This document shows, one piece after another, positions 5,603 through 35,530 of a stretch of 64,000 nt of DNA. Origin of the DNA: Atriophallophorus winterbourni (lineage: Eukaryota > Platyhelminthes > Trematoda > Plagiorchiida > Microphallidae); NCBI GenBank assembly GCA_013407085.1, contig JACCGJ010000638.1, positions 1-64,000 of the forward strand, read 5' to 3'. The translations under genes were made by a program, and so were the position numbers. Position 1 is the first letter of the stretch. Every line of letters starts with the position of its first letter. The notes below the pieces were generated by a model. It had not been told where the DNA came from and searched no databases. It saw nothing but the letters and a program-made list of their open reading frames with translations.

Positions 5603-5845
5603 GTATGATATGGTATGAAAGCACAAGCCTGATCCAGGCAAAGTGCCGCACAGTCAGAGACTGCACGTGGGCGATATTACTGTCAGGTTTCCCAGGCCTA
5701 GACAGATATGATAAATAGAAAATAAAGATGGTAGTTAGATTCCAGTGTGTTCCAGCATGCAGCTGACTGCCTGTGTCTAATCAATTTAGCACGGTGTTAG
5801 CCGCACAGCACAGAAGTACTGAACGAGTCCGGCTCATTGTAGTAG
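5603..5845 (+). repeat. SINE-like family 1, near full length
   Basis: This copy begins GGTATGAAAGCACAAGCCTG and contains the diagnostic blocks GTGCCGCACAGTCAGAGAC, TGCACGTGGGC, CCCAGGCCTAGACAGATATG, CAGCATGCAGCT and AATTTAGCACGGTGTTAGCC in order. The same blocks recur at 7669, 9882, 10738, 16275 and 36640 (+) and 12880, 13546, 16831, 34381 and 60880 (-). It has no ORF. Its 3' end drifts from the consensus after about 5835. Confidence 0.8.
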
Positions 5846-15442: not shown

Positions 15443-15842
15443 GCAAAATACTTGTGGGACTTAGCTTAGTCCCCACATTGAACCTAAATTTAAATTTGCA
15501 ATTGAGGATTTATCCTCAAAATCGCAAATAATTGGGTTTAGCACAAAGTCAGATCGGCGTTCGAATGTCAGGTCACGTTTACGCATACCTGATGAGCGGC
15601 AATAACCGCGACACCGGTTGTGTGCTTCAGGCCTGCTTTTCGAACGTCATATACTACTTATTAATAAAAATCTGACTTCAATCAAAAACTAACCATCGTG
15701 CTGTTATTGGAATGTTGAAAAATATTCCAAACAGTTACCGGTGCTGCATTGCACCGCTTGTGGGACTTAGCTTAGTCCCCACATTGAAGCTAAATTTCAA
15801 TTTGCAAATGAGGATTTATCCTCAAAATCGCAAAATACTTGT
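15443..15842 (+). mobile_element. Retrozyme-like unit: direct repeats flanking a hammerhead ribozyme
   Basis: Two 78 bp direct repeats (15451-15528 and 15757-15834, 3-4 mismatches, no indels, exactly 306 bp apart) flank about 230 bp that contain a hammerhead ribozyme motif (15558-15646). GCAAAATACTTGT occurs at 15443-15455 and again at 15830-15842, consistent with a 13 bp target-site duplication. Each repeat holds two hairpins: GTGGGACT pairing with AGTCCCCAC, and TGAGGAT pairing with ATCCTCA. No ORF or protein-coding domain is present, so it would be non-autonomous. The layout resembles plant retrozymes and metazoan hammerhead retroelements. It could also be read as 1.27 copies of a 306-nt circular template. 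It lies 175 bp downstream of the GPKOW stop codon. Confidence 0.7.
15558..15646 (+). ncRNA. Hammerhead ribozyme, type I, with an A14-to-C core change
   Basis: The core is CTGATGA (15589-15595), stem II GCGG/CCGC with loop CAATAA, then GACA (normally GAAA) and CCGGTT with the predicted cleavage site after 15619. Stem I is GCATAC (15583-15588) with GTGTGC (15620-15625), extended outward by CAGG/CCTG (15569, 15632) and CGTTCGAA/TTCGAACG (15558, 15639), all correctly nested. Stem III is the palindrome ACCGGT, as in other short-stem-III hammerheads. The A14-to-C change should greatly reduce or abolish cleavage. Confidence 0.75.
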
Positions 15843-16274
15843 AATAGTTACATGAAGATGCTCGTTTTCCGCAGTGATGGTGGGTATTCTCCGCTACTTT
15901 CTCCGTTGGGTCAGTCGCTATTTTACCTCAACCAGTCCTTCACATATCGCTTTCTATCTCTGTTTTCATTGCGTTTTTCGTCTCACAAAAAGTGATCAAT
16001 TCTTTTGCATGAAATTATTATTCATGCTGACGTATAAAAATACTAAACGGTGCTTATCTAGCAGGCCAATCCTAAGTTGTCTAAGAAATGCACCATCCAC
16101 GGTAGGTGCTTGACTGGCTGCGATAGAGAAGCGATATCAAGAACAATAAACGCACTCTTCCGTTGATTGTTATCGTTGCATACAGGAGCGAGCAACGTCT
16201 GTCGACCTATTATTCTGTTTGCGTGTACACGAACGTTGTTTGTCCTTTACAGAACTCAGCATTCGTTTGTGGAT
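15843..16274. other. No gene recognised
   Basis: Only short unsupported open frames are present. No splice-linked exon, repeat or RNA motif was recognised. Confidence 0.5.
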
Positions 16275-16388
16275 GGTATGAAAGCACAAGCCTGATCCAG
16301 GTAAAGTGCCGCACAGTCAGAGACTGCACGTGGGCGATATTACTGTCAGGTTGCCCAGGCCTAGACAGATATGAGAGATGGAGAATAA
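16275..16388 (+). repeat. SINE-like family 1 5' fragment
   Basis: This is the first ~110 bp of the unit, very close to the copy at 5603 (it shares TGGGCGATATTACTGTCAGG), then truncated after GACAGATATGAG. Confidence 0.8.
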
Positions 16389-16830
16389 AGAATATGCCTG
16401 CTCTGTCGCGTTTTTAGGCAAATTGAATCAGTCAGTGAAATTCAGTTTAAACGTGAGCACTGCTCCTGTTGATTCCCTTGCTCCCACGAAGATTTTGTGT
16501 CAGAAACAAAGCTTTCCATTCTTGACTAAACTTTCTTGATCGTTCTCAAACATTATTCAATGTTTTGTTGGCTCTGATTTACGTTTCACTACGCACACCT
16601 TACGGAAATTGCACTTTAGTTCAAATAATCGTAGAAACGTCATTTTAATGTTCCAATAACTTTAGAATATTGCGGTTTCGTGTTTGAAGTTAAACATTTT
16701 AACAGTGTTTGTACAAATCCTAGTCATCATCGTAGCCGGTTTCATGCTTTGTGAAATTGTTGGATCGGGCAGTACAACCGGGCTCTGTGTGCATGCTATG
16801 ATTATGTGCCTTTTCGCGTTTATTTCTTTC
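16389..16830. other. No gene; possible decayed hammerhead copy
   Basis: At 16722-16775 the minus strand reads TACTGCCC, then a degraded middle, then GCATGAAACCGG, which resembles the ribozyme consensus from stem I through GAAACCGG. The CTGATGA box is not preserved. Nothing else is recognisable. Confidence 0.25.
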
Positions 16831-16927
16831 TGATATTTGACTACGTCTGGGCAACATGACAGTATCTTTTCCCATGTGCAGTCTATGGCTCTGCATCACT
16901 GCATGGATCAGGCTTGTGCTTTCACAA
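16831..16927 (-). repeat. SINE-like family 1 fragment
   Basis: The + strand shows CGTCTGGGCAACATGACAGT, then CCCATGTGCAGTCTATGG, ATGGATCAGGCTTGTGCTTT. These are the head blocks in reverse complement, diverged. Confidence 0.7.
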
Positions 16928-17189
16928 ATATGTACTTACGACCCTTATTTAGTTTTTACTTATACAGCTGTTATTTTGAGCTTGTCTGAATCTGGCTGTA
17001 GGCTATTTACTGAAACGGTGCACTATTGTGGAGGTCCGCAGTGCATTAGGAAACCACAAATGAGTTATCCTGTATAATATACTGCGAGCAAAATTGTAGC
17101 ACGCAGGATTACATGAATTTGACGAATTAACGGGAACCTACAGACCATGTATGAATAGAGTAGATGAAATAGTGCCGCGAAATGTTTAC

Positions 17190-17270
17190 ACATGCGGATC
17201 CTGATCTTACTGCCCCTACCTGATGAGTGCAAACAGCACAAAACCGGTCGTTGGGTGTGTGACGAAAAAT
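17190..17270 (+). ncRNA. Hammerhead ribozyme, type I, with a G12-to-A core change
   Basis: The core is CTGATGA (17220-17226), stem II GTGC/GCAC with loop AAACA (17227-17239), then AAAA (normally GAAA) and CCGGTC, with predicted cleavage after 17249. Stem I pairs CCCTAC (17214-17219) with GTTGGG (17250-17255) with one T-T mismatch. The upstream arm CATGCGGATCCTGATCTTAC is shared with the minus-strand ribozymes near 34480 and, in part, 25925 and 32225. The G12-to-A change hits a catalytic base, so activity is doubtful. Confidence 0.7.
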
Positions 17271-17714
17271 CATGCGAATGAATATTTTGGTTATCTATAC
17301 ACTATTTGAAAATTGAACGACAATACATTTTCAGTATATCTTTTGTAAATCAAGCTTGGATCCTGCATCACACGTAACGTAAATTCAGAACGCGGCTGTG
17401 GAAACACGACAAAATTCTTGATTAAGGTGGGCAAGGAACTTCTACTTATATAATTGTCGAAAAACATTTAACTTAACATCAACTATAGACTAGTAACAAT
17501 AGTGTTAATAAATGGCAAAACGTGAGCTGAAAACGGAGTGCGCTGCGTATAAAAATTCGATTAGGAATGATATACTACGAAGTTTTAAAGTCATGCAACC
17601 TATTTCATTAGATAACGGTTGAAGTTAGAGTGTTCCGGCTAAAACCGTGAACTGAACAAAAATAGTTTTGACATGTGAGATTGGGTTACTACGAGAGTAA
17701 AATCACATGCACAA
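17271..17714. other. No gene recognised
   Basis: AT-rich sequence without a recognised motif. Confidence 0.5.
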
Positions 17715-18400
17715 GTGTTTAGAGGGTCTAATATATATGATATTTTGTACTTCAGGAAGCTGAATGCTTTCCATCTACGAGGCATCCGTCGTATCTTGAA
17801 CGTATCGTGGCTGGACAGAGTGACTAATGCTGAAGTGCTTTCAAAAGCTTGTCTACAGAGCATATTCACCCTGTTGCGACAGCGCCGCCTGTGGTGGCTT
17901 GGTCATGTCTACAGAATGGAAAATGGTCGTTTTCCAAAAGATCTACTCTATGGTGAGTTGCAATTAGGAAGTCGACCATTGGGCAGACCGCACTTGCGGT
18001 ACAAAGACGTTTGCGAAAGAGATATGAAAGCTCTTGGCATCGACCCGTCTAGTTGGGAAGAAGTTGCTCTTGACCGCTCACATTTGAGGCATTGTGTAAA
18101 GCGTCGTCTGCAAGCTGGCGAGGAACAGATACAGCTCTTGGCTGCTGAACGCAGATCACGCCGCCAGCGTGCAACTGATGCAATACAACCGAGATCTGAC
18201 TTTCGTTGCCAGCGCTGCGGGAGAGATTTTTGTTTCCCGAATCGGACTGTACAGTCATTCCAAAAGCTGCAGAACATGAACATTCAGGCGATTGTGATGT
18301 ACATCCATCTTCGACATTGACCGAAGGAGGCCAACAACAACTTCAGGATAACGTCGACGATGTAGAGGATTCATTTGCATGCCGAACACTTGGCTTGTAA
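17715..18400 (+). pseudogene. C-terminal end of an RTE-type LINE polyprotein with terminal zinc finger
   Basis: The frame reads GIRRILNVSWLDRVTNAEVL, RQRRLWWLGHVYRMENGRFP, KDLLYGELQLGSRPLGRPHL and RYKDVCERDMKALGID. This is the very conserved post-RT tail of endonuclease-RT LINE proteins often annotated 'craniofacial development protein 2-like'. It ends in a zinc-finger start (FRCQRCGRDFCFPNRT), after which the frame shifts. There is no RT core upstream, so it is 5'-truncated. It may belong to the same family as the RT fragment at 7241, but the two pieces do not overlap. Confidence 0.8.
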
Positions 18401-19256
18401 TAGATTCCATGTAGAAGTCGACATCCTTCCTGATATACGGTGACCAGGACTGTGCATCAAATTACATGACTGGTATTTATTTCTAAACTCATGAACCGAA
18501 AAAGATCCGAGATACTCGTTTCAGTAAGTTTCGATCAGATGGTAAATTTGTGTGTAGATACATTGGAAAGCATTCACAGCACTCTCTCATCGACTCTATT
18601 CAGGCATGTTCCATAGGCTCCCGTTAGTTCCTCGAATTCACATTTCTGTGTACTGCCTGTTGATTTGCCTGTGTTCGCGGTAGCTTTTCCTGCATAACTC
18701 ATTCGTGGTTTACTTGGTGATCTTATACTTCATCGTATTGTTTTTGTGCGGTCGCATCATGTTGAGTTTCTGATTACCAGGATATACTGTTCTTACACGT
18801 ACGTGGATATATTATACCTTTTTGGAGTCCCCTCGAAGTCATCTTTCTGGATATCCCACTCCCGTTGCGGTATTCGATTATTTCTCGTGATTTTTCCAAT
18901 TTAGCTCTACGCGTGCAACGCTGTTGCTACTCTTCAAGTCCTCAAAGGAATTAACGTCATCGGAAAGATCTTATTCTTCGTTATCGACTGGTTATATATT
19001 CAACATTGTGCGATCAACTACCGAAGCGTATCCCCTGATTCAATTCTGATTTTGCTCGTATTCGTGAACACAGCTTCTTTGTCGCGCTCACAATATTCAT
19101 CATCGATCGCTCGACAGAACCACTGCCTGTGAACCCACCACTGAACAGTGCTCCTCACAACCCTGACCGGGTGACCCTGAAAAGAAAACAAAGCGCCTCG
19201 GACTGAATGTGTACGGTTTGCCAAAAGGCGGTAACTCTTAAGCCGAAGCGTTACGC
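18401..19256. other. No gene recognised
   Basis: This separates two LINE remnants. No conserved motif or shared repeat was found. Confidence 0.5.
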
Positions 19257-21640
19257 TTGTTTGTTGAAAATGCATGCAAAATTCGACAAATCGCTGACCT
19301 CGGATTTGCTATCGATATTGATGGAGATATTTGTCCCGGTGTTTGTTGCGTCTGCCAGGCATGCAAGGCCAGACCGGCAGTGACACCCTCGGAGGAAAAC
19401 ACTGATGACAATGAAATTAAGACGCGTCTAAATGGACTGCAATCCAGTATACGAAACTGAATTAACTGATAAAAAACGTCATCAAGGCACTTTTGTTGTC
19501 CCACTTAGGGGTTACAGCCAAACAGACGATAGAAAATTCATCATACTCGAAAAGGCCATCATTTCCAAAGATAACCGCGCAGATGGTGAGTAAAACGGGT
19601 AAGAGTTCGCCGGGATCAGTAACTCTTCAACTTAACGGAAACCAGAAAGGACTCAGCAAAACCAGTTGTTAAAAGACCAACTCAAATTATAAACTAATTA
19701 TAAACCTTAGTGTTATATGTACCAACGTGGTCGGGTCACGGGAAACGCAGTTCGAAGATAAGCAAAAACATGACTTACATGACTTTGTAGTCAGATGGGA
19801 CTGTCCGCAATTACTCCCTCATCAATAGTTCGGCTGATTATTATTATTATTACACAAGTCTTTACAGACGATGTACCAACAAGTATACCATGAAGAGGGT
19901 ACATGATGAGAGAAAAAAGGTAAAAAGGCGGATTTTTGTCTGTTTACACAAAGATGATCCTCGCCTCTTACGAATAACCCTGCAATCTGTGGAGGACGTG
20001 GAAAACGTACTCTTAAATGCTTACCTTCTTAGCGGTATTCCAGAGTCTACATGTCGTATCCAGGCAGATCTACCACGGTGGGAGCGAAAGTCGTCGAAGA
20101 AATTTCGAGAAGAAATTAATCCAAGAAGTATTTTACTTCTAGGCAATCCGGAAGATGCTGCTGACGTACCTTCTCAAGAAAAATTTGAGCACGATCACAA
20201 ACAGTGGAAATACCTAGCCGAAACAATCGGTATTAAAAAGCCATACTAGCGGATGCTTTTATGATACCGCGATCTGCGAACTATAAAGGGCAAGGTCCTA
20301 TCCCTTTAAAGCAAACCTTATTGACAACCAAAATGACCGATAATATCAAACGTGAATGGAAGGGTAATTGAAGAAACCTACCACCAAAACGTCAAGTTGA
20401 GCTTGCCTAGGATAATAGCCGGAAGCAAGCAAACTGATAGTACCGACCCACCAACGCCTAGTGATGCGGTTCAAACTGTATATTATGCGATAGCTCCAAA
20501 GACGTGAGCATTCCGACTCTAACCGAGTCGGCCCATTGATAACCTTTCATGATTTGAACACTACAAACTCTATAAGATGTTTATATACAAATGCGGAAAG
20601 CCTTTAGAACAAATTAGCGGAGTTAACCGAGATATGCTCGCACTACTCACCTGTCATTATTGCCATTACAGAGACATGGTATTATTCCCAATTGATTGAA
20701 ACGAGATATCCATTTCAAAAATGAATTTGATAAGGAACCTTCAAGAGAGAAGTGGTGGCGGTGTTGCTCTCTATTATCATAATCGCCTCCATTGCCGTTC
20801 AATAGACAACACAGAATTCATCCTCGATGATACAATTTGGTGTTCTTTAACGCTCATGTCTGGTGAACTTTGCATGATTGGTGTGTTCTACCGGTCTCCT
20901 TCATCTACGGAATCGTACTACGAATGGTTAATCCAAGTGCTTCAGCACTTGACTCGCACTCAGCAAGCAACAATACTTATTATGGGTGATTTTAACCTGT
21001 CTATCCTTTATCTCAGGGACGTTCACTCCCCACAAACGCTAGAATACCGATTTAGAGAGGTATTAGTTTTAGTCCCTCTACACATCCACTTGACATGAAT
21101 GTTCCTTAGGCATATCGATTGAGAACTGAAAACTTGACATGGTGCTCTTTGGAAAAAGATCTTGGAGTATGAATTATTTGAAACCTGAAGAGCATGGTGC
21201 ACTGCTAGAATATATATCGACAGGCAGACAGATTGTTAGGTATCTTTCGAAGAATATTAGGAAGATTCTCACTGGTAACATTACCAAGGATAATTAATGT
21301 CTACCTTCGCCCTAAGATGAAGTATGCGGTAGAGGTCTGGGCTCCTTGGCTGCGAAAAGATATTGCTCTCTTTGATAACTCTATCACAGAGCAACAATGA
21401 TAGTGATGGGTCTTCGCAATGTTCCGCACACCGAAAGATTGTGATGTGTGGGTCTATGTGACTTTACCCAAAGCAGGATACGACGCGATATTATTCTGAC
21501 CTATAGAATTGTGTGTGATGGGAAAGTGACTCGCGGACATACTTTATACCTTTACGTACCAAGTTCCCCTATTGATTGTCGGCGCCGCCTTTCTTTGGAA
21601 TTCCCTACCCCAACATGTGGTGGATGTTTAAAGCGAAATT
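19257..21640 (+). pseudogene. Decayed CR1-like LINE: ORF1, endonuclease and RT thumb remnants
   Basis: Three collinear remnants occur. 19890-20249 matches the second half of ORF1 at 3311-3913 (DDPRLLRITLQSVEDVENVL; SILLLGNPE). 20721-21098 matches the endonuclease (RSGGGVALYYHNRLH, MIGVFYRSPSS, TILIMGDFNLS). About 21230-21400 and onward reads like the CR1 RT thumb/connection (LRPKMKYAVEVWAPWLRKDI), then RRDIILTYRIV. A Cys-rich stretch at 19257-19460 (CCVCQACKARP) may be the remnant of the PHD region. There are multiple stops and frameshifts; most of the RT palm is missing. Confidence 0.7.
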
Positions 21641-21942
21641 GCACTTACACATGCTGTGAATCGATCGCTCCATGACCGTTTTCATAAGCACGCGTTGATT
21701 TTTTATCAATCACCGAGACATCCGATGCATTCCCCGTCTATATGCCAAAATTTCGGGCTAGGTCGCCCAGGAAGAATGCTCTGCACAACACTTTCATGTG
21801 ATTGGCTATCGTCACCGACCCGTCTAATTGCTGTCTAGTCATCAACCAATGGCAACGTTGCATCGATCGACGTACCCACATTCAAAACTTTCGCCACGTG
21901 CACTGGCTGAACATTCGTTTTCGACCGCGTCGTGCCCGTGGA
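21641..21942. other. No gene recognised
   Basis: Possible tail of the decayed LINE; no motif is identifiable. Confidence 0.4.
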
Positions 21943-21987
21943 ATGTGTAGTCGAACGTTGTTCAAGCGGCCCTTAGACATTTCGCAG
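21943..21987 (+). CDS. Candidate first coding exon of the SLC16-like transporter
   Basis: ATG at 21943 opens 15 codons ending in ATTTCGCAG followed by a strong donor, gtaagg. The exon ends in phase 0, which is exactly what the next exon (23843, beginning R-D-A-G-W) needs. A short charged N-terminus before the conserved DGGW-like start of transmembrane helix 1 is normal for this family. No homology can be seen in so short a peptide, so the link rests on phase and position alone. Confidence 0.35.
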
Positions 21988-23842
21988 GTAAGGAAGGAAA
22001 TTTTAATGCCGCTAGTACGATTTTTTTCTAACATTCTAAACCACCGTTTTTGTTTCGCTTTAGTATAATTTGAGATCCTGTGTTCATTTTGCATGAGATC
22101 TGATTAATTTACGATACTGCAGTACATCTCATTGATTTTTTCGGAATTTATAGCAAGGCAAAATTTTGAATAGCGCTTGGATTGTTATAGTACCCGGGCA
22201 CGGACAAAGATACGATGAACACCGTTCGGACGACTAAGCACTGTAGTTGTAGGCAATCGACATGATATACTTGAGTTGTTTGAAACTACTTTGTAGTAAC
22301 TAAACGCCTGAAATCGATTTTACTGGTAAGCTAAGGTTAATCAATAAAGGGATTTGGAAAACGGTTGTTTGTGTCGCATCAGTCACCAGTGGATATGACT
22401 GAACTCGCTAGCCGAACTTATTTCACCCATATTGTGCCCGGTATCGCGATACTTCATCGTCTGCGCATGCTCAACTACTTCCCTAATAACGATCTTTTCT
22501 ACCACCCTTAACACCTCATAATTGTATGCTTTCATCGCTCAGTCCCAGGGTAAACTGGCAGGTTTCGGTGATTACTTTTTATCAATCTATAAATGTCCTA
22601 CGTTCCCACTTACCCGCGTACGTGCACAAGTTCACACACGCAAATTGATTCCTGCATCTGTACATGTACTGGAATCTATGCAAATTTCGCGCTCTCACCT
22701 TCGTTCATTTGGTAGCGGGTGGGCAGATAGACCGTAAATGATTGCGTCAGGTCAGCGAGTGCCAGCTAACGAACATCTGGCCACTTATCACAATATTTCC
22801 ATTTCATCGGTCTAACAATAAGCTCCCCTCCGTGTTTCACAGCCACTTGAACGTTACACCGGATTCATCCCTGAGGTCAGCCATTCCAACGCTAATCGCC
22901 TGCACTCACGAATCCCACAACACAAGGGAAAGCCGATTGGCCAAACGCGTTTATTACTTACAACACAAGCAACAAAACATACGTCTATCTTATATAGGAT
23001 GAACAAGTAACCACATCACTGTCCCGAAGCATCTCTGTCCCAGTTGTCACTCAGTAATATCTGTTCGGTAATGCCAGCTAATCCTCTGAGGGTATGTACA
23101 AGCAGTATTTTTTCAAATAATGTAAGAGAGCAGAGTGCTTATGTGTTTTTCATCGCATGCACGCATCAATCGTAGACATTATATCAAGAAGATATTGTCT
23201 TCATTCGTCAGCCATTAAAATAATTTCACCACAGACTTTAAAAAGTGACAAACAGGTCGCGACATCGAGTTACATTTTGTAAGCTGCACCAGGCAGATAG
23301 ATGGTTCGCAGCTTTCCTATCTCTGTACATTATTTGTGCAATTTCATCAACTTTTCGGGTGCCCGATGCTACTCGTATTAACTTTTGTTTCTATGGAAGT
23401 TCCTTTCCCGATCGTAGCTTGTCGCAACGGTTGCAACACTCGGTGCTGCATACCCTGGCCTATTAAGCTGTAGACACTTTCATCTATTTCATACAACGAT
23501 TACATATCAACGTTTGAACTCAAAGTAGACAGATACGAATGTGAAGCACTTATTTCCAGCATTTTACTCCGTCTAATTTAACAACCCATTTACTTCGTCG
23601 GGTTGTGACTTATAATTACACGAAACGTTATAACATCCTTCAAAGTAAATTGTCCAAAGTTTTTTTATAATCATGGCAAAATGATTCCGCGCTTGCGGAT
23701 TGCAGACTGCCGTAGAAATTAACAGGCAAAATTAATATTGAAAAACTGTCCCGGTGGTTTGTAACAGTTTGTATTAATGAACGACGTGTGTGGAATGATT
23801 CTCTCTTTACAAAATTCATATTTGCTCTTCTTCGATTTGTAG
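21988..23842. other. Putative first intron of the SLC16 gene; contains a dispersed repeat
   Basis: If 21943-21987 is the first exon this is a 1.86 kb intron. It contains the repeat at 22775-23055 and nothing else recognised. Confidence 0.35.
22775..23055. repeat. Dispersed repeat shared with 28040-28290
   Basis: This shares with 28040-28290 the ordered blocks CCGTGTTTCACA, AATCCCACAACACAAG (versus AATCTTACAACGCAAG), CAAACGCGTT/CAAGGCGTTA, CGTTTATTG-like, and CACATCACTGT/CACAACACTCT followed by CCCAGTTGTC/GCCGGTTGTC. Both copies are clearly diverged. No coding capacity or terminal structure was recognised, so the class is unknown. Confidence 0.5.
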
Positions 23843-26800
23843 CGCGACGCTGGATGGGCTTGGGTGATTATGCTGTCGTCGTTTACCTGTCAGCTGTTAA
23901 TCGATGGAACGTTGAGTGGTTTTGGAGTGTTTTTCGTGGCCATGCAATCGGACGAAGCGTTTGCCAGCGCAAATTATAGTCGGACGCAATTCGCTATTGC
24001 TGGCTCCATGCAAACAGGATTCTTCCTTTGTACTGGTAGGTACTTTGATAAAACGCCGCATTTAATCAACTGTAAAAATCAATCAATATGCATTTTTTGA
24101 TCTGTTTCTTTTGCACGCCCTGAAAGCCCTTTGACACGATATTAAGTGTAATGAATGAATACTTCCTTACACGAAGGGATCGCTTTTTATATACTTCAAT
24201 ATTTTCCGTCAAAATTCTCGCGGAAGAAGAGTATGAAGTGCACTAGTTAAGTGTCCCAATCAAATGTTCTCGGATGACATGCGGGAACACCGCCTTCCGA
24301 TAAAAAGCATACGCAAGAAACGTCGAAAAGACAGAAATCGCAGCCCCATGGAAATTTCGGTTGCTAAGATTTGCGTGATAAAGGATAAGAATTACACCCT
24401 GTCTGTAAACAATACTGAGTTGAGACATTAGCTATTTAACTTGTGTAAGGTCTAACGCAGCTAGGGCTCGAACGGAACTCATCAGCAAGAAATCGTCTGA
24501 CGAATCAGATCGAAGTGAGAATCGTCACAGGCAGTCTGTGGACATTCTCAATAATTACGATATTCGTTTATGAGAAACAGGTGTGTTTTACATTTTGCCA
24601 TTTGCGGAATAAACGCTTGGTCAGTTGACGCGCTCGTGTGTTGCGGGCTTTGTGGGTGAATGTAATTGAGAAAGGAGTGGATAACCTCAGAGGTGAATCG
24701 TTAAGCGATCGAAATCTTAACAAGGAACGGTTAAAGCTGAATCAAGTGTTGTTGAGGTGGGGTCGAAAACGTACTAGACGTCAGGACCGGAACCATCTGA
24801 AGTGACAGCCCCCTGTATAATGTATGATACGTCCACACCGCACAGCCTGCTGCTTCGTACGTCGAAATCTGGCCGTAATAGTTGTTGGTACATGGTCTCT
24901 GTCGTTGTGTTAGTCTTTATTTCAACTTCATAGACAAAATTAAGGGTTAGAATGTTAAATAATAATCGAAATTTTCTATCAAACTCTGAAGGCAGAACCC
25001 TTTGTTTGTTTGGACTAGATTCAGCGAACGAACTCGGGTCTGCAAGACGGTAGCTTGTAACCTATCATCATGATGCATTCTAATGGACAGTACATTCATT
25101 TTCGGCTTTCAGTATATGTTTACATATGATTTTCTCGCGTATAAACCAACTGGTATTGCATTTTATAAAATTTTGTCATTTTGAGATTTTGAGACGGTAT
25201 TTTTGCAGTTAATTCCATTCATTGACATCTTCAACTTGACAAGTATTTGCGTAATAATGTAGTACGTGTCCGGAATAAACGTTACTTATTGATTGAATTT
25301 GAAATGACGTATGAGGTGTCAGCGAAATTGTTCACGTCACATTGTCTAGTAGCTGCTTATCAGTTGTCAATTTGACACAATCGTAAACACATTTGTTCGA
25401 TTTCAGGGGCCTTTGCGAGTCCATTCGTACAACGCTACGGATTTCAAAGTATGGGCGCGTTGGGCAGTTTTTTGGCCAGTTTTGGGATGGGATTGGCAAG
25501 CATTCAGAAAAACATTCACTTGTTCAACGTTTTGTACGGTTTTATCGCTGGTGAGAAACATTCTAATCGAGATACAATGTGTTTTAATTCACTCCGACAT
25601 TTCGTCATTTAAACAAGAGGACATTTATATCAAATCGAAGGTTTCACAAAGTTGTCCGCGTTCTTTGTCTCAAATCCCACAAGAGTTTCTGCGAAATTTA
25701 TAATTTCTCGTGAGATAAGCTAGATGGCGCTTTGATCAAATTGTGATTGCATTTTGAAAAGCATTTCCCGCGCCCTAAATGAAATTAAAAGCTCATTGTT
25801 TTAGCTAATGTTATTTCATTCGGAACGATATGATAGACCGAAGTATTGTGGTGCTCACATCCCCATCCCTTACACACCACTACCGGTTTCTGGCTGTTTG
25901 CCGTCGTCAGGTGGAGACAGTAAGATCAGGTTCAGTGAGCCTTGATATGATAGACCATTTAGCTTTTCTTTATATTCTAGGATATTTGCTTAAAAATTTA
26001 AAACAACGGTCAAACGAGACATTGTTCGATATTCGCCCTCATACTTAACCATCAGAATATAATATAAGAATAATAATAATAATATATGTCCTGAACAAAC
26101 TTCCTTTACCTTTCCAGGTGCTGGATTTGGCATCATGATGCTCTGCGCAATCGTATCGGTCAATTATTACTTTGAACGTTATCGTGGAATAGCTTCCGGC
26201 GTTGCAACGTCAGGTGCCGGTGTGGGCTACCTCGTCGTACCGCTGCTGCTGAACAACTTGGTGAACACATTTGGCTGGCGTCCGGCACTTTTAGGCTATG
26301 CACTTTGTATGTTCCCCGTCTCATTGTTGGCCATGCTCACTATTCGGCCCTTTGTCTTGGTGACAATTGATTCTTTGAGTGACGCGGAACTTGAAAGGTA
26401 TTTGTCCATCGAAGCGAACCTGGCTCCTTCGGGCACTGATGTCAATCAAATCAGACCAATAGGGTCCGGGAACGAGTATCCCATACTATCGGGAACTATT
26501 TCACACCGTTCGGGTAACCTCAGTGAGGATGCGCACTGCAACTCTACTCCCGGCGTGGTAAGTATAGTTGACCAGTCTATTTCAATTACTGTCTGAAATG
26601 TTCATGGAGATCAACGTTTTATCGCAATTTTAGTTCAAAAATCAATTTAATCGTTCTAAATTGTCAGGAACCAGATTTTCAGAGTCTTCTCTTCTATATT
26701 TGGCACAGTTTGTGTCAAAGTTGAATATTCACATTGTTACAGCGCAGGGTGCAACTTGTTTGAAAGTCACGTACTTTCTAAAATCAATGGAAATGTAGAT

Positions 26801-29800
26801 TTGATTAAATGAGGCTAAACGTCTTGTTCATTTCTGTATTTTCTCACCTTTGTCAGCTAGTTGCATCGGTTATTCTATGTGAAGCGTGACTGAGCTCAAT
26901 TCCGTTGTATCACAGCCATCTCGGGTGTAGTTCAAGCTGTTTGGTTCCGTCTTTCATCAAATTATCTCTCTTAAATGTATAAAAAATAACGCACGAAGGC
27001 TGTTGTCAAACGGAGATCAGAAATAAATACAAAATACTTTCATGGAGTTAAAGGATGAAGAATGATCCTCTAAATAAAATACCGATCGCCCATTACTGTC
27101 TGAATAGCACGCAGCGAGGTCAACTCAACCGTTGTCAACGAAACATCGTCATGAAAACAGAATCTGACGAGCTTGCAGCATGCTCAATATCTCTAATAAA
27201 TTGCAGTCCGAGTCCTTCGATCGCTTGAAATTGAAGTTGTACACAAACCCACGCTAACCTTACGCTACTAATTAAACAATATAAATAGCATAGTCGCGTA
27301 TAGAGATTGTGAGAATTATGCCGGACTAACTGATCGACAGCTGAGCACAAGACTGCATGCACGCCAGTCAACGGTATGCAGACATGACCAGAAATCAGTG
27401 ATCTCAATACATTTCACTCTGCGTGGGCTTCAGATCGATTCTGAGATGGTAGCCACAGGAAACAACCAATTTTTTCGATAATCCCTTGAAGCGTAGCACT
27501 CAATAATGACTTCAAGTGAGAAATTTCTAAAATTGGATGCGACCTATGAACTAACTAGAAAAGCGCTTACGAAGAAGCCGGGTTATGAACTCGACCAACC
27601 TCCGGGGTGATGCTGAGCTGACAATCCTTATAAAACAATAAATCTAATTTTAATTCACTTCGAAAGTAGATTCACTGATGATATCATCTAACCTGATGAG
27701 AAAAAACCCAACACCAATTATACAACCTCAGCATACACTAGCTAAACAACTTTATCTCAAAATCTTATCCCTCACAATCTATTTACTAAAACTCGATGCC
27801 AAGCATAAGGTCAACGAGACATCAGTCAAGTTATGGATATCGATTTGAGGTTCATCCGTTATTAACGGTTTTACCATGCATTTTGCACCGTATTCTCACC
27901 GCAGGCGAAATTTAAGGGCACGACCCCATGGGGCATTTTGTTTGATTGCAGAGGTGAGGAGAGATTATGTCAGGTCAGTCGAGGTCAAATCGCGTTTCTG
28001 GTTCTCACCTATATTACGTTGATTACACAGGCTTCAAGGACACTCGATGCATTTTGGCCACTTTGCCCTTCCGTGTTTCACATCAATTTGCCGACCACGT
28101 CTTAATTCACCAACGAGGTTAACCTTTCTACCACGTTTACCCAAGAATCTTACAACGCAAGAGAACGACAATTGGTCAAGGCGTTAGTACGTACATGACG
28201 AGAAATAAAATACAAGCCTGTCGTTTATTGACAAATCAACTAACCACAACACTCTCCTCAACATGTCTGTGCCGGTTGTCTTTCTTCTTCTTCTCTTCAT
28301 TTGATTTGGTGCTAACCGGTTCACTTGAAGCTCATTTGACCGACCTTGACAAATTGCTCGATAGCAGCTGGCGTTGTCCCTCTGCTCGTGTTCCCGAGAT
28401 GTTGTCGCTCTAACCGTTTTCATGCAATCCTTCTGTTGCCTGAAGTATTGCCGGTTTCGGGATTGTTGTCGTTGGTGTTTTCGGAGCTTCCTGCTGTTGT
28501 GCTGTGCCGGAGGGGGGTTTCTGAATATCCTCCGAGAGCTCACGATAGGTACACGTTACACCTCTACACAATGACGAACACCAAGCAACTCCTTCATGAC
28601 TTGCGTGTTTTGTTAAATCGTTATCATCACGTTATTCTTACAGCCTGAATCGGTTGATAGGTTTCAATTTTCCCGTATCGAATGATCTAGGGATATGTGT
28701 AGTGTCATTATGCTTAAAACCTGTTCACAGGATGGATGCCTAAATGTGATAGAGGTGATTGATTTGAACAAGTTCCGCGGTCGGTTCCGTTTCAGAATCT
28801 CTCTTTATGTTTTCATTCAACCTGACAATTCACTTTTCCTATCTTTTAGGTGGTGGTTAATACTCAATCTTTCAATACATCAGCCACCTCACCAATTCCA
28901 TCCGCGGATGAGTCATATTATCCAGCGGCGGATGCTTGTGGGAAATCCAGACGCTCGTCCATTTTGTCAAATCGACGTGATCCCTCGACCGGTAAAGTTG
29001 TGGGAACAACTGGTCAACTTTCGAGCAGCTTCTTGAATATGATCAAATTATACTTAACCAGAGAACGACATTCTAAACCGCAGGCTGGTATGCTATTTCT
29101 CAAGTTTAACGTTTAGCGGTACAGCATAACAAGCATATCTGCCAATGTTTTCCGAATTTCAGCCGCTGAAAACGGGACCGTTGTTGAGGAGTTCGGCTCC
29201 ACTGTAGGGTCCAGGCTGTGGAAATCAACACAAGTTTTCAAACGTCGACCGAGTACTGTCAATGTGAACGTGCCGAACGGTATCGCTCCTGATAAACTTT
29301 TCAGCTCAACAGTGCATTTCACACACCATCCAAATACAAAACGAATTCGGAAGGTGATCGTTTTAGACCCATTTGAACAACTGGATATATTCTTTTCCTC
29401 AAATATTAACAAATTGTGTGACCGTGATAGCGCAAAGTTACGTCGAATTTCGGCGAGTAGAATGAGCACTATTCACTCATCAGCGAAATTAGATGGCGCA
29501 GCAGATCATTCTTACTTGGGGAGTTGTTCAACATTTACAAGAAGCAAACAAGGTGCTATCAATCAAATACCTCATGCTCATTTAAGCCATGTCAGCTTTG
29601 CCGGGGAACATGTTGAAGAAAAGGATCTCGTTGCCGATTCCGAAGTAAAACCTGATCTTACTCCCTACCCTCAATCCATTCACGATCATTTTGTTGACGA
29701 AGATATGTACAGCGCAAGTGCTGACTATTACTCACAGCCCGGTATCTTCCAACGTCTACGCCAACAACTCGTCGTCCTTTTTGACCTCGGACTTTTCCGA

Positions 29801-32800
29801 AACGCGGCATTTTTGTTCATTTTAATCATTGGCGTGACAAATCAGCTGGCTTATTTCATTCCATTTGTCTATTTGGTGGATTTTGTAGTGAGCAAAGGCA
29901 TCGCACAAGACAAAGCCGTTTTACTCATCGTAATTTTGGGTAAGTTCCTCATCCAATGCTCATTGCGGTTATGCTTTTCCCTGGTTGAAATTGTTCGGCA
30001 CGAATCAGTGTTCGCTTTGTTGCAGTCAAGTTGCTAAATCACCTTCACTTGACTCAAAACTCTTCAAATGGTTATTCGAAAATTACGCTACCGGTTTCAG
30101 TAAACGCTAAACACGTATTATCGGCCTCGTTTACAAAATTTTAATTCTCAATATACATCACAAGCACATGGCTTCATGTCCCACACCGATTTGCGTCAAT
30201 TCAATTTTAATGGTCTAAAAAGCATATGACTTTACAAAAAAAACCACAGAATAATATAGCCGAGACGATCCTCATAGTTTGGTGATAATCTACGATCATC
30301 AAGTTAACAGCATTACCTGTTCTTAAAGCAAATCCTTTTCAACTTGTCGCGAGAGCGAGTGGTCGAGGCGCAGTTCTTTCCACGACATTGGCTCACCGTC
30401 GAGATTATTCATATCTTGTTCTCTGCGCATCATATCTTTTTTGAACCGTCTATGTCATAGTTGCAGCTTACTGATTTCCATTATCCACCGCGTAGGAATT
30501 TTTGAATACAACTGTTTCGCGGTCTATGGACATGACCTCGTCAGCGTAGCCCATGCTGTCGAAGTAGCGTGAACATGCTTCGTTGACCAGCTTTAGTGCG
30601 CGATGCATGCGCTAGGCTGGTAGCCCGGCGAAAATTGATTGATGTTAGCTGATTGATTGGCGACATTGTTTACTGACCTCCAAATTGAACATAGACCGTA
30701 TGACACCCGACCACAATGAATTTAACACGTTTTTGGCATATGGAGTCTGGTTGTCCTGTTCAATACCTTGATAGAAACTGTTGACCGTTTAAATTCACAC
30801 ATATGTACTATGTGTTTACGATTATTTGTCGTGTAAGATGAAAACTAATGTAAAAAACACTAGGTATCCCCTCAGTAGACAAATGGACGCCAGCTGTATA
30901 TGTTCACAGGTTTCGTTGAATCGTTGACTTTATCTATCGTTGTCTATTTGTCTCGGAAACCTTTACGATTTTTCGCTGCACACAGATCACCATGACGATG
31001 CTTATTCAACTGGTTTAAAAGTATAAAAACCATTCACAATTTTTTGCGACTTACTCGTGGTACAATTCATGACTTTTCACACTTAAATAATGATTACCGT
31101 ATTAGTATCACTAACTTGGCCATTATCAGGGTTCATTTTTTAAAAATGATCAATGAACCACCGTAAGAGGGTTGTTTGAAGATACCTGCGAGGAATTATT
31201 GAAATTTTGGGCAAGTATTATGGTTCATACCCTACCCAAAATCTACTCAGAACCCCAGGTTCTTAGGCCCGAATATACATAAGGTTGGCGTCCCCTTGAG
31301 GCCCATAGTCTATGACATTGGCTTAGTACCTCACCCATCTGTTTCACCCGATGGTTGGTAACATGAATTATTTCATCAGGAACGAGTTAAATGACCTTGA
31401 GCGCAGCAGCACACGGCCAAGGACCTAATAGGGTTTTCTATCGCACCTTCTTTTCTTAGTCTGTTTAGTTCGTTTCTAACCTACATTCCGTTACTCAGCC
31501 AACTGAGAATTAATCAAATAATTGTGCATCTAGTGTAAGTTCTAATAAAACTAACACCGTTTGTCTAACACAGATTGTGTCAGGAATCAACTGTAATTAA
31601 GTACTGTCATAACCAATTCATTCAAATTTCATTCACGATTAAATTTTCCTTAAATAATTATCCTCTTCGCGGTGCTTACTAAGCCGAATCCTGCTGGCCA
31701 TCTGTTTGTTTGTTGCATTGTTGCGGCCTATCTTTCTTACGTAGCATCGATTCTGAGAAATATACTCCGTTTTTTCTAACCTATCCAAAGCGATTGCATC
31801 GTCGAGCATGCCTTTACAAAATACCATCTGAGTGTTTCTATTCGGCAGGTTCGCTACACACCATTGGTCGAGTGTTGGCTGGATGCGCCGCCAACGTCAG
31901 TTGGATTGACACGGTGTACATCAGCGGGTTCGGCTCACTTGGAATCGCTGTGATCAATTTGCTCTTGATTCTTGTCTTCCCAGTCAATTTCGTGTGGTAT
32001 TCGGTTTATGCCGCCTTGTTCGGATTTTGCTGTGGTGAGTTTCGCTTTTTGGCAATGAGCAGTGGGCACCTTGGACGTAATTTGATTCCTTATTCTCTGT
32101 GTGATTCTGCTACTAGCATGGAAATCGTAATTTGATTTATCTTATGTATTGTGTTGCTCACATCCCCATCCCTTACACACCACTACCGGTTTCTGGCTGT
32201 TTGCCGTCATCAGGCGGAGACAGTAAGATCAGATTCAGTGAGCCTTGAAACAGCGATAATGGTAAACAAGATTATACTTGATGCCCACGTTTTCATAGTG
32301 TTTCTTACAAAGAACCACAATGTTCAAATACGAGGACACAAACTGGTTGTAATATTTCCTCAGTAACTCACACCAACATTTCTCAGTGGTAAATCCCCGT
32401 GTTAAGAAGACTGGTTCTGAAATTCCAATGTGCCCTACCTATTGTTATCGGAAACAATAAATTTTTTTTCGAAGGTGAAAGTTTGTCACTATATTTTTTC
32501 TGCTGCAATGCCAAACTATTTCGGGGATCGGAGAACCATGAACTTATTCAAATGTGAAACGAGGTTTTCATGGAGTAGTAGACTTCAAGTTGGTGTTGTA
32601 GTCACTCGACTGTGTTTTCGGAATGGTACCTATTTTATCATCGAATCAGATGAAGTGTTGACTACAATGCGCCATCTAATTGTCTTATTGATCGGGCCAT
32701 CATTCATCCGAATTAGTTTGGCGGATGCTTATCAATATGCTTACATATCGGTCGCTACCATTCTGTAACACTATTTTTATATAGTGGGCTGAGTATTGTT

Positions 32801-35530
32801 TTCAATATTTTCATTCCTACCTCATTTTGATACATGATTAGTGCTTACAGCCAGTTATTCAATGCGTTATGAATATCTGATCAGGAAATATTATTCTGTC
32901 ATTTTTACATTCAGGGCATCAACTGATACGTAGTCAAGGTTATGCGAAATTCTGCACTATGCCGTAGTCCTTGAATCGGGAGCCTCTGTTAGTAGACTGA
33001 GGGTTAGCGTATGATCTTCTTACCAGGCTCGGTTGAGTGAAAAATGGTATTGATTGGAACACGACACTGGGATTTCGAGTAATAAACAAACCATATTCAG
33101 ATATCCATTATTTGTGCTGTCTTCGTGTATATGAAAACAAATTCGTAACAAATCGTTTGAAGCTGATTTTCGCTTGTTATCGAAGTTTTTCTCACGATGC
33201 CGGTCTTACCTCTTTAATACAATCATATGTAACTGTTTGTCTTCTGGCTGTCAAAATGACGTGAAACATTCATAATGGTGGGCCTGCTTCCAGTGTGATC
33301 AATTGCTATCCTCCTCTACTTATCTCAACTCGAATACTTTTGACCGGTTTTCAACTAAGTCGTACCGCGAAGATTATATGATTTTCAGCAAATGAAGAGT
33401 TTTGAATCTGGATCAACTATTTCTTTCACTACAAGATTAGACAGCCACATTTGGGGAAAAAATTGTCAGAGGCTTTAGTTGATCATGTTTTACCCAAAAC
33501 GGAACAGAACCAAATGTGTTTCTTTTAGGCCACTTACGGCTCGTCAAGATATTTCATTTCTATCGATCTCGTCGTGAATCGCATTTAGATCGCGCACGCT
33601 GGTAGAACTGTGAGCTTGGTGTAAGTTCGTGATCTTTTTCGGTTTTTCGAGGCTGAAGTCACATGGGACACCATCGCCAGAGCAAAAGATGAAAAACCCG
33701 ATTTTTCTAGTCTCAAACCATGGGTAATATGAGTTTTACCGCTCCTGGCTCACGAAGCTGAATATAAGTATCGGCCGTATGGGTTCCGGTGGTCTGATAT
33801 AGGACTAATCTACCAGGTTTTGTTCATTACTCACAATTGTACCAATGTTAGCTATCATTCATTCACAAAGACTGATGCAACTAGTCTTGGGTGTGTCGTT
33901 CGTGCAACGAATGTTAGCCATGTGATCAGATACACTTTTCAAGTCTCACCAATAGTCATTTCTCCGCCTATACAGAACGGATAATGAATTATGTTCGATT
34001 GAAAATTTAGCTGGCAAACACTTTGACACACTTCATTCTCGAATCCTCTTCTTTTCTGTGGAGGTCTTGCACTTGCGTGTCAGCTTGTCTTCGTACGTCA
34101 CTGTGGCGTTCTCAGCATTTTTACCGTTTTTATTCATTTCCAAATACAATTTATTTCTCACTGATTAGCTTTGCCAGTCCCGATGATATCCATACTACTC
34201 GTCCGATTTCTCGGCTTGGAACGGCTCACCGGAAGCTACAGCAATCTGAATCTTATCAAGGGCGTGGCATCTGTTGTCGGGCCACTGGTTGCCGGTTAGT
34301 TCACGTGGTGCACAAACTTTCTCACAACAACATACTAGGCATTGTTCATTTGCATTTATTTCCATCATGCACACCCCACGATCGGTCTGTCTGTGCGGCA
34401 CTTTGCCTGGATCAGGCTTGTGTTTTCATACCATACGATCGGTTTCGTGCTGTTTGCACTCATCGGGTATGGATAGTAGGATCAGGATTCGCATGCGCTT
34501 GAAACAGTTTTTCTTGTTTTCTGTGGTGATATCTTCGCTCGGTTTTGTTTTCTCATAGAGACAAATGAGCAGGCATCGGCTTTAAGTGTTGTACACATTT
34601 CATTGGACTGCTTTATCACCAGGTTATTTAGAATTACTTCTCATGGTATGGCAGTATCTGAAAAACATATTGCTGAACAAGTTAGATTTTTTAATGTTTA
34701 ATGCTGGTTTCTCTTGTCTTTCGATTCAGTCGTTAGTGTGATATTTAAATTTGCCGTGTTTTCGTAAATTGAATTTGAATTGAATTTGAATTGAATTGAA
34801 TTGAACCTTGCAACACTCGCGAAAACTCATTCACTATTATTTCAGTTTCATTTTTGAAACAAACCTTAACTGTAGCGTTCTAGCTTTCATAATTCGTTAC
34901 TGTTGTTGCTGCCATTCACAACACCCTCCGTTCGTAATGAGAATTGGTTGTCTTGATGAGGCTTTTTCAAACAAAATAAGATCGCTCCGCTTCAAATTGA
35001 CAACTAAGATTTTTCGAAGCTCCTGTGTCGAAACCGTTACGGAAACTGAGTGATCCCAAGCCTCGTTTGCCCATTGATTTTTCCATATTCCATGTTTAAG
35101 CGTTTGGCTGTCTGGCAGACTTCAGTGAGCATAAGAGCAACTCACTTTTCAACCAATGAATCTAGAGTTACTAGAGGAAGCGGTCGAGTAAATTTAATGA
35201 AAGCAATCATATTGTCCCGCAGTTAACGGCCCTCTTTCCTTCACATGTCAACTGGTACGAAACAGTTCATAAAGTGCCGTGCCATTTCTGATGCTCTTGT
35301 TTCTGTTTTTCTCCCATTTCATTATTTACTTCTTCGCAGTGAACATCGTAGAGAAAACCGGACAAACGGACCACTACTTTTATGTAGCTGGATTGTGTTT
35401 CTTTCTATCTGCATTGTTCCACCTTGGCCTGTGTCGATTCCCTTGTTCAAAAGTCCAGGCCGATCAAACCGATATGAGGACATTATGTTGCCTTGCTGTT
35501 CGCACTGGCGATAAAAGCGGTCAACATTGA
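23843..35530 (+). CDS. SLC16-like monocarboxylate transporter (MFS), eight exons, 5' exon uncertain
   Basis: Exons: 23843-24035, 25407-25550, 26118-26557, 28850-29087, 29163-29939, 31849-32034, 34178-34294, 35340-35530; all GT-AG, with phases consistent over 2286 nt (761 residues). The N-terminal RDAGWAWVIMLSSF is the conserved DGGWGW-type start of helix 1. NYSRTQFAIAGS and GAFASPFVQRYGFQSMG follow helices 1-2. FERYRGIASGVATSGAGVG is the monocarboxylate-transporter signature around helix 5. LERLTGSYSNLNLIKGVAS and GPLVA...TGQTDHYFYVAG are the helix 10-12 blocks. The family moves lactate, pyruvate or similar monocarboxylates across the plasma membrane; the substrate here is unknown. The cytosolic loop between helices 6 and 7 is about 350 residues, far longer than in vertebrate MCTs. 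The predicted C-terminus ends 63 codons into the last exon. Confidence 0.88.
25840..25943 (-). ncRNA. Hammerhead ribozyme (intact core) as a 104 bp insertion with 13 bp target duplication
   Basis: On the minus strand: stem I CCAC, CTGACGA (25910-25904), stem II CGGC-AAACA-GCCA, GAAA (25890-25887), CCGGTA, with predicted cleavage between 25881 and 25880, then GTGG. Outward, CTTAC pairs with GTAAG (25869-25873 with 25920-25924) and GCTCAC with GTGAGC (25853-25858 with 25935-25940), all nested. Stem II has one C-A mismatch next to the core. GATATGATAGACC flanks the unit on both sides (25827-25839 and 25944-25956), showing it moved as a unit of about 104 bp. It lies in an SLC16 intron, antisense to the gene. 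Confidence 0.8.
28040..28290. repeat. Dispersed repeat shared with 22775-23055
   Basis: See the partner copy; this one lies in the 2.3 kb SLC16 intron between exons 26118-26557 and 28850-29087. The shared blocks extend to GTGCCGGTTGTC at about 28270-28281. Confidence 0.5.
30181..30245 (-). repeat. LINE-like 3' terminal fragment
   Basis: CAATTCAATTTTA, GTCTAAAAAGCATATG and CCACAGAATAATAT on the + strand match 59553-59620. Read on the minus strand it is an A/T-rich end with AATAAA-like and (TTGAA)n-type sequence, as at the 3' ends of CR1/RTE-type elements. It lies in an SLC16 intron. Confidence 0.5.
32146..32255 (-). ncRNA. Hammerhead ribozyme with intact CTGATGA/GAAA core
   Basis: On the minus strand: CCGC, CTGATGA (32213-32207), stem II CGGC-AAACA-GCCA, GAAA (32193-32190), CCGGTA, with predicted cleavage between 32184 and 32183, then GTGG. 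The outer pairs CTTAC/GTAAG and GCTCAC/GTGAGC are kept. Compared with the copy at 25840 the second stem I pair is G-T instead of A-T, so pairing is maintained. It continues on the minus-strand 5' side into CTGTTTCAAGG, shared with the 34.5 kb copy. It lies in an SLC16 intron, antisense to the gene. No clear target duplication was found. Confidence 0.78.
34378..34507 (-). ncRNA. Hammerhead ribozyme joined to the head of SINE-like family 1
   Basis: On the minus strand: CCATAC (34472-34467), CCGATGA (CTGATGA with U4-to-C), stem II GTGC-AAACA-GCAC, GAAA (34446-34443), CCGATC, with predicted cleavage between 34437 and 34436, then GTATGG (34436-34431), giving a perfect 6 bp stem I. Immediately downstream the sequence continues as GTATGGTATGAAAACACAAG and CCTGATCCAGGCAAAGTGCC, which is the head of SINE-like family 1, and ends after about 60 bp. 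The upstream arm is CTGTTTCAAGCGCATGCG. The U4-to-C change and G-to-A in stem III probably impair it. It lies in the last SLC16 intron, antisense to the gene. Confidence 0.8.
34766..34808. repeat. TTGAA/TTTGAA microsatellite
   Basis: Repeated AATTGAATTTGAATTG units over about 43 bp in the last SLC16 intron. Similar pentamers end the LINE-like tail at 59545-59565, so it may mark a LINE 3' end. Confidence 0.6.

Follow-up and report, generated by a model that had tools for sequence, protein, structure and literature searches.

The five hammerhead-like motifs (c1 to c5) located in a 64,000-nucleotide stretch of the Atriophallophorus winterbourni genome (positions 1 to 64,000 of contig JACCGJ010000638.1, here called the window) are very likely isolated and worn representatives of three families of non-coding tandem repeats, with units of 306, 243 and 233 bp, belonging to the animal retrozymes that lack long terminal repeats (non-LTR retrozymes). 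By sequence similarity, c1 is a member of the 306-bp family, c3 and c4 are members of the 243-bp family, and c2 and c5 of the related 233-bp family. The original prediction had read the motifs as type I hammerheads carried by mobile repeats in the genome of a flatworm, which is supported; it had also assigned all five to a single dispersed family, instead of which we found three families of tandem repeats, two being sisters, and a fourth hammerhead family outside the window. In the mechanism that we propose, the arrays would be transcribed into multimeric RNA, in which neighbouring hammerheads, singly too weak because helix III is only ACCGGU, would pair via this palindrome and cut the RNA as a double hammerhead, as folding suggests. 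A reverse transcriptase, presumably borrowed, would then copy the circular or multimeric RNA into a new target site, and insertion would leave the target duplications of approximately 8-15 bp seen in the DNA. The ends observed in the 233 and 243 families suggest that copying mostly begins at a fixed internal site 38-47 nucleotides downstream of the expected cut, and that variable upstream stops would yield everything from ribozyme-only copies of approximately 100-117 bp up to multi-unit copies.

Hammerhead motifs and the families they belong to

The five predicted motifs are present, with hammerhead cores at 15589-15619 and 17220-17249 (plus strand), and at 25881-25910, 32184-32213 and 34437-34466 (minus strand). 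A descriptor allowing at most one core mismatch and requiring at least 3/4 stem II pairs and 5/6 stem I pairs, which was composed after the motifs were known and is tailored to them, matched the window exactly five times, at c1 to c5 and nowhere else; 100 dinucleotide-preserving shuffles gave a mean of 0.51 and a maximum of 2 matches. The window also shows a mild excess of CTGANGA (44 vs 31.5). There were no matches within the window at Rfam gathering scores. Below the cut-off, c1 matched HH9 (RF02275; 36.2 bits, E 1.8e-5, gathering 52), c2 matched HH9 (22 bits) and c5 matched Hammerhead_1 (24.7 bits, a score helped by a false stem I derived from an insertion); c3 and c4 had no Rfam hammerhead match up to E=10. 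The lack of matches at gathering scores is the one point in favour of a mere chance resemblance to the hammerhead, an explanation with practically no probability left: it is refuted by the shuffle control, by 27 covariance-model matches over the cut-off in the genome, and by 7,451 genome matches to the core pattern described below, compared with 0 for its reversed control.

The genome assembly searched comprises 537,331,230 bases in 15,840 contigs. The covariance-model search that the original prediction had proposed as its check was positive: RF00163 gave at least 32 matches at E<=1e-3, 27 of them over the cut-off (best 74 of 96,317 candidates scored), and no match in 14 control genomes. Queries with the window copies retrieved the families themselves. 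With c1, 40 matches were scored, of 1,789 candidates (96-98% identity, c1 itself excepted), many of them in arrays with 306-bp spacing; with c4, there were 41 matches (best 40 of 2,293 candidates scored), several loci being arrays of 242-243-bp units; and with c2, 40 matches were scored, of 3,465 candidates (92-98% identity, c2 itself excepted), with arrays of approximately 233-bp units. Doubled units of the 233 and 243 families are 68% identical over 351 columns, which makes the two families sisters; the 306 unit showed no match to either of them at E<=1e-3. A 34-position degenerate pattern of the 233/243 core accounts for the 7,451 genome matches mentioned above (3,679 + 3,772). Each unit carries one type I hammerhead, and the three lengths fall within the 150-450 bp range of retrozymes; the GC content of one representative unit each is 0.415 (306), 0.457 (243) and 0.464 (233), all below 50%.

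Eight loci were also scanned with Rfam. One 233 unit reached 34.4 bits over a cut-off of 34 and the other 233 units 30.8-32.9 bits; the likeness of the 306 family to HH9 extends to the array copies in locus L036 (32.1-37.7 bits, nearly all full-model), yet these, like c1, stay below the gathering score of 52; the SINE-type (short interspersed nuclear element) locus L002 scored 40.8 bits against 34; and three 243-family loci (L041, L055, L060) gave no hammerhead match at E<=0.01. Eight loci taken from the RF00163 search (L001-L008) are all centred on a fourth, SINE-like hammerhead family, and the RF00163 matches above the cut-off also include at least one copy of the 233 family, C1298. The SINE-like family has a palindromic helix III ACTCGAGT, scores above the Rfam cut-off and is Sm-alpha-like in outline. 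Upstream of the hammerhead, several of the eight loci carry the motif GGTTCGAATCC, picked out by eye, which we take to be a tRNA-like B box.

In the window, c1 (15456..15829, plus strand) is an isolated 1.25-unit copy of the 306-bp family, with 94.8-97.1% identity to full-length array stretches (aligned over 15451-15834); it is flanked by a 13-bp target duplication, GCAAAATACTTGT (15443-15455 and 15830-15842), a few bases of which fall within the alignment at each end, and its hammerhead motif (15583..15625, plus strand) has GAC for the GAA found in the majority of array copies. The isolated 233-family copy c2 (17191..17287, plus strand) is 89% identical to a 233-bp array unit; its hammerhead (17214-17255, plus strand) has AAA for GAA and a T.T in stem I, and there is no convincing target duplication in its flanks. 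On the minus strand, c3 (25840..25943; hammerhead 25875-25916, same strand) is a 104-bp isolated copy with 96% identity to a 243-bp unit, between the two copies of a 13-bp target duplication, GGTCTATCATATC (25827-25839 and 25944-25956); c4 (32146..32348; hammerhead 32178-32219; both minus strand), an isolated copy with 87% identity over 207 columns to a 243-bp unit, has no convincing target duplication in its flanks. The last copy, c5 (34345..34508, minus strand), is a worn 233-family copy split by a 48-bp insert (34387..34434, minus strand), with the unit matched on either side; its hammerhead remnant (34437-34472, minus strand) has the core changes CCGATGA and ACCGAT. The insert, which is the source of the false stem I, is a piece of an unrelated interspersed repeat present in 12 copies (the one at 16274 is 94% identical over 49 bp) and is bordered by a 9-bp target duplication, ACCGATCGT (34378-34386 and 34435-34443). 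A sixth member, a 243-family piece without ribozyme (13794..13943, plus strand; 76% over unit positions 30-197), begins at, or a few bases from, the expected ribozyme cut; a possible 8-bp target duplication, TTGGAGTG, overlaps its first bases, making the exact end ambiguous.

The interspersed repeat that interrupts c5 has window copies at 5610, 7672, 9886, 10746, 11416, 12865 (minus), 13544 (minus), 16274, 16829 (minus), 34386 (minus), 36642 and 60879 (minus); it starts around ATGGTATGAAAGCACAAGCC, some copies have a (ATGGT)n-like end, and it looks SINE-like. Both c3 and c4 lie antisense amid MFS-transporter-like open frames (26063-26596, 29117-30037 and 31683-32135), perhaps in introns; the middle frame, the one searched, had a single protein match, to an Echinostoma caproni MFS protein (38%). 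Organism-named matches of a gypsy frame were mostly to flatworms, cestodes and flukes (best 120 of 1,792 matches); together these matches support a flatworm origin well and make a trematode one plausible.

Stems, cores and folding of the ribozymes

The conserved core (CUGANGA, GAA, H17) is intact in c3, c4 and most array copies of the families, and changed in c1 (GAC), c2 (AAA) and c5 (CCGATGA). CTGAnGA and the palindrome ACCGGT, both said to be common to all five motifs, are thus missing from c5, which has CCGATGA and ACCGAT; the GAA of the core, covered in the prediction by GAAA or a one-base change of it, is GAC in c1 and AAA in c2. The 4-bp stem II attributed to c3 and c4 consists of three pairs and an unpaired C.A (10.1-11.1). 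Nor does the covariation claimed among the five motifs survive: c3 and c4 are not independent evidence, because they are 96% identical over 103 bp, and the perfect stem I of c5 (CCATAC/GTATGG) is accidental, because its 3' strand joins GT of the element to ATGG of the 48-bp foreign insert. The notion of five independent covarying motifs was discarded on these grounds, and c5 is a caution that a covarying ribozyme stem can be faked by an inserted repeat.

Some compensatory change in stems I and II is observed between families. The comparison covers four hammerhead types (L005 excluded), two of them sisters, and represents few independent events. Pair 10.2-11.2 is C-G in the 306, G-C in the 243, T-A in the 233 and C-G or T-G in the SINE type; pair 10.3-11.3 is T-A in the SINE type and G-C in the other three; pair 10.4-11.4 is G-C in the 306 and C-G in the others; and for the inner pair of stem I, G-C occurs in the SINE type and C-G in the other three. 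At 10.1-11.1, G-C is found in the 306 type and in 67/70 copies of the 233 type, and C.A in 74/82 equal-length copies of the 243 family; AAA replaces GAA in 11 of 70 equal-length 233 copies (the stem and core counts of both families include overlapping loci). The selection of the 25840 and 32146 copies for in vitro cleavage is not supported, as both have the C.A of the 243 family, whose three scanned loci lacked any Rfam match at E<=0.01. The 243 hammerhead may have weak activity or act with the help of a protein. The fixed C.A in so abundant a family (L055 and L060 are examples) is compatible with a tolerated mismatch, with protein assistance, or with amplification without efficient cleavage.

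Helix III is A-CCGG-U in the three window families and ACUCGAGU in the SINE type. RNA folding gave a monomer optimum without helix III, and in each of the four types two copies folded together as a double hammerhead with the palindrome in common; the energy model is without tertiary contacts, and in the 306 type it additionally pairs A14 with U17. Comparable arrangements have been described: an axolotl type I motif has one helix III pair and a palindromic tetraloop (PMC7229834), and amphibian hammerhead motifs require dimers (PMC7761336). The circular fold of one 306 unit was more stable than those of its shuffles (z = -7.3, 0/100 equally stable).

Ends of the copies and rival explanations

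Insertion was analysed in 57 isolated copies, which excluded those lying 60 bp or less from another copy or near the ends of loci and retained short arrays no longer than 4.5 units. A target duplication of at least 9 bp was found in 15 of the 57, compared with 3/400 mismatched flank pairs. Copies longer than one unit also have duplications: c1 (1.25 units, 13 bp), L050 (1.55 units, 12 bp), L085 (1.18 units, 12 bp) and L087 (4.51 units, 15 bp). Unless such copies grew after insertion, they suggest a template that was either circular or multimeric. Removal of shared-flank duplicates reduced the set for end analysis from 59 to 54 isolated copies, and a requirement of at least 80% identity left 19 (233), 19 (243) and 7 (306). 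The 3' ends fell in one 10-nucleotide interval in 11/19 copies of the 233 family and 14/19 of the 243 family (maximum of 6 in 500 draws from a uniform null), and this interval lies 38-47 nucleotides beyond the expected cut after H17. The ends of both families are of an AATAYWTTGG type. The queries stopped at unit positions of approximately 70 (c2) and 77 (c4), so that copies ending earlier were disfavoured in retrieval and those ending later were not; since later-ending copies were not penalised, the cluster is not simply a product of retrieval, although its lower edge was perhaps sharpened. For 5' ends, the 233 family has a cluster at 195-203 (9/19 vs a null maximum of 7), beside a predicted stem, AACAGTGG/CCACTGTT, at which we infer that copying may stop; the 243 (6/19, null maximum 7) and 306 (2/7) families stay within the null. 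A pattern for a 5' end exactly at the cut had 1 genome match, a slippage variant, and a comparison pattern for the common 5' end likewise 1, giving the test no power. Among deduplicated matches in the fetched loci, 4/121 start 3 nucleotides or less from the cut (L046, L072, L085 and the window piece at 13794), that of L072 at an inversion junction; the number is too small to carry weight.

Several observations weigh against identifying these families as retrozymes. A fully canonical ribozyme is found in none of the window copies. The fetched loci were mostly retrieved by hammerhead-containing queries and were limited in number, so that the copies are not a random sample; 42 of the 57 isolated copies, c2 and c4 included, have no duplication of at least 9 bp; and multi-unit copies could have originated by growth after insertion. 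The 3' ends of the copies are not at the ribozyme cut, and the 3' clustering of the 306 family (4/7) merely equals the null maximum of 4. Divergence within copies, set against that between copies as a sign of origin from one circle and calculated for 19 copies after leaving out L013 and L044 as compound or low-identity, gave a mixed picture: 4.0 vs 5.7% (306), 7.0 vs 11.3% (243) and 7.0 vs 6.2% (233). The corresponding shared-variant fractions (21 copies) of 0.271, 0.242 and 0.154, vs 0.266, 0.067 and 0.049 for array neighbours, are confounded by subfamilies. Circular folds were unremarkable for the 243 (z -1.15, 11/100 shuffles as low) and 233 (z -1.97, 3/100) units, and a tandem of one representative 233 unit has 118 successive codons without a stop.

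The spread of ordinary satellite DNA through segmental duplication, unequal crossing-over and gene conversion, with the hammerheads as passengers without a role, would account for the long homogeneous arrays, for isolated copies that have common flanks and were moved by duplication (L052/L053, L078/L079) and for the frequency of core-changed copies such as the AAA variant of the 233 family; we regard it as improbable, as differing flanks together with the excess of target duplications (15/57 vs 3/400) indicate insertion rather than recombination, and pairing and core are maintained in four hammerhead types. Somewhat less improbable, and still unlikely, is an origin of the families as SINEs that RNA polymerase III would transcribe and a LINE (long interspersed nuclear element) would mobilise, the 3' end being a terminator, which for the 233 family would be TTTT. 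AATATTT(T) stands at many 3' ends of this family, the hammerheads of the RF00163 loci have upstream of them what is presumably a tRNA-like B box (recognised by eye), and the window has LINE-like open frames, also named by eye; the 243 family, however, ends around AATACATTGG, without TTTT, and promoter boxes are demonstrated in none of the three window families, on whose units no promoter tool was run.

A closer rival, possible though on the doubtful side, makes the 233 and 243 units derivatives of Penelope-like elements without open reading frames, that is, a ribozyme-bearing terminal segment mobilised via internal initiation of reverse transcription. It is favoured by the 3' ends clustered 38-47 nucleotides past the cut, parallel to what is described for the Anolis element in PMC11167929, by GIY-YIG fragments in the genome, in the window and near a 233 copy in L080, and by inverted pairs of 233/243 elements. 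Weighing on the other side, the units are without similarity to a GIY-YIG fragment of the same genome (L099), itself interrupted by a gypsy insertion; the Penelope-like identity of the GIY-YIG fragments is an inference; and fixed 3' ends are also produced by LINE-type enzymes. Inverted neighbouring 233/243 elements were noticed at L043, L048, L051/L067, L054, L072 and L084, some with truncated partners, resembling 5' inversions.

A candidate mobilising enzyme and related systems

A decayed GIY-YIG endonuclease end lies at 27275..27547 (plus strand; tblastn 34% over 95 amino acids, E 9e-11, to L099, the same-genome fragment, which matches Pfam PF01541). It is probably the end of a Penelope-like element, a possible type of mobilising partner for the retrozymes; no hammerhead was seen beside it. 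Two CTGATGA sequences adjoining this fossil (27675 and 27693) were rejected as hammerheads, by eye neither stem II nor GAAA being found behind them. A further candidate, c3 and c4 as the two ends of a 6-kb Penelope-like element, was also rejected: MFS-transporter-like open frames lie between them and the GIY-YIG fossil is on the opposite strand. PF01541 has at least 17 matches in the genome (best 150 of 1,370 candidates scored). On the minus strand of L080, a 1.3-unit 233 copy that begins at the hammerhead core has a GIY-YIG fragment approximately 0.95 kb upstream, oriented the same way. The repeat units were compared with the L099 fragment as far as the gypsy insertion that truncates it, a stretch short of the terminal repeat, and showed no similarity; the Penelope-like link stays hypothetical. 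No frame for reverse transcriptase or GIY-YIG flanked by hammerhead-bearing pseudo-LTRs was found in the units, whose longest stop-free tandem stretches are 53, 65 and 118 amino acids. The Penelope-like trait, a fixed internal 3' end downstream of the ribozyme, is seen in the 233 and 243 families only.

PMC11167929 reports that, with purified Anolis Penelope-like protein, reverse transcription begins internally at an AC-rich stem-loop, 111-118 nucleotides into the frame, with a second start 30-40 nucleotides away, and that the hammerhead cut is at nucleotide 26 of the frame; by subtraction of these figures, the internal start is 85-92 nucleotides beyond the cut. The starts also mark the ends of the genomic Anolis copies, mutation of the ribozyme does not abolish insertion, and AT-rich targets are used (PMC11167929). 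In the 233 and 243 families the position of the 3' end beyond the ribozyme resembles this arrangement in outline, at a shorter distance. We tentatively consider, without favouring it, that retrozymes of these two families may be copied by a Penelope-like enzyme from a fixed internal start approximately 40 nucleotides past the ribozyme, in which case the cut would not be the insertion end.

Retrozymes with type I hammerheads occur in many phyla, with platyhelminths named as carriers in PMC7229834. The families described here are like the metazoan non-LTR retrozymes as characterised there (Cervera and de la Pena 2020, PMC7229834): type I hammerhead, low-GC tandem units of 150-450 bp, target duplications of more than 4 bp and, as in axolotl, a weak palindromic helix III. 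No LTR, primer binding site or polypurine tract was noticed in the units, for which no dedicated search was made. A difference from the retrozymes of PMC7229834 is the presence of three families in one genome, of which two are sisters with a common insertion 3' end and one (243) has a fixed C.A at the base of stem II. In Schistosoma, hammerhead-bearing repeats include the Sm-alpha SINE-like repeat and the W-elements (PMC8490949); going by the descriptions there, our families share with them type I hammerheads, an extremely short stem III and core-changed copies. A difference from Sm-alpha is that we noticed no tRNA-like promoter in the units of the window (no promoter tool was run); L001-L008 look, again by description, nearer to Sm-alpha than the window units do. 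Hammerhead-bearing Penelope-like elements, from the account given in PMC11167929, also have type I hammerheads, tandem or partial tandem copies, and insertion ends that lie past the ribozyme instead of at its cut; the present units differ from them in their length of 233-306 bp and in that no reverse transcriptase or GIY-YIG frame was found in them.

Among the open-licence papers listed in literature searches, no title or opening of an abstract concerned these families. The system is already known in kind, as animal retrozymes; what is new is the 3' insertion end 38-47 nucleotides past the expected cut. PMC7229834 names LINEs or Penelope-like elements as the source of the enzyme that moves animal retrozymes, the latter as a strong candidate, and a genome with thousands of copies sharing a sharp 3' end near the ribozyme lends itself to a test of which enzyme it is. 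If true, a fixed internal start followed by a stop at variable points of a circular or multimeric template would explain both the ribozyme-only copies of approximately 105 bp and those longer than one unit, and an internal start of the Penelope-like type would identify the missing enzyme that mobilises retrozymes in animals.

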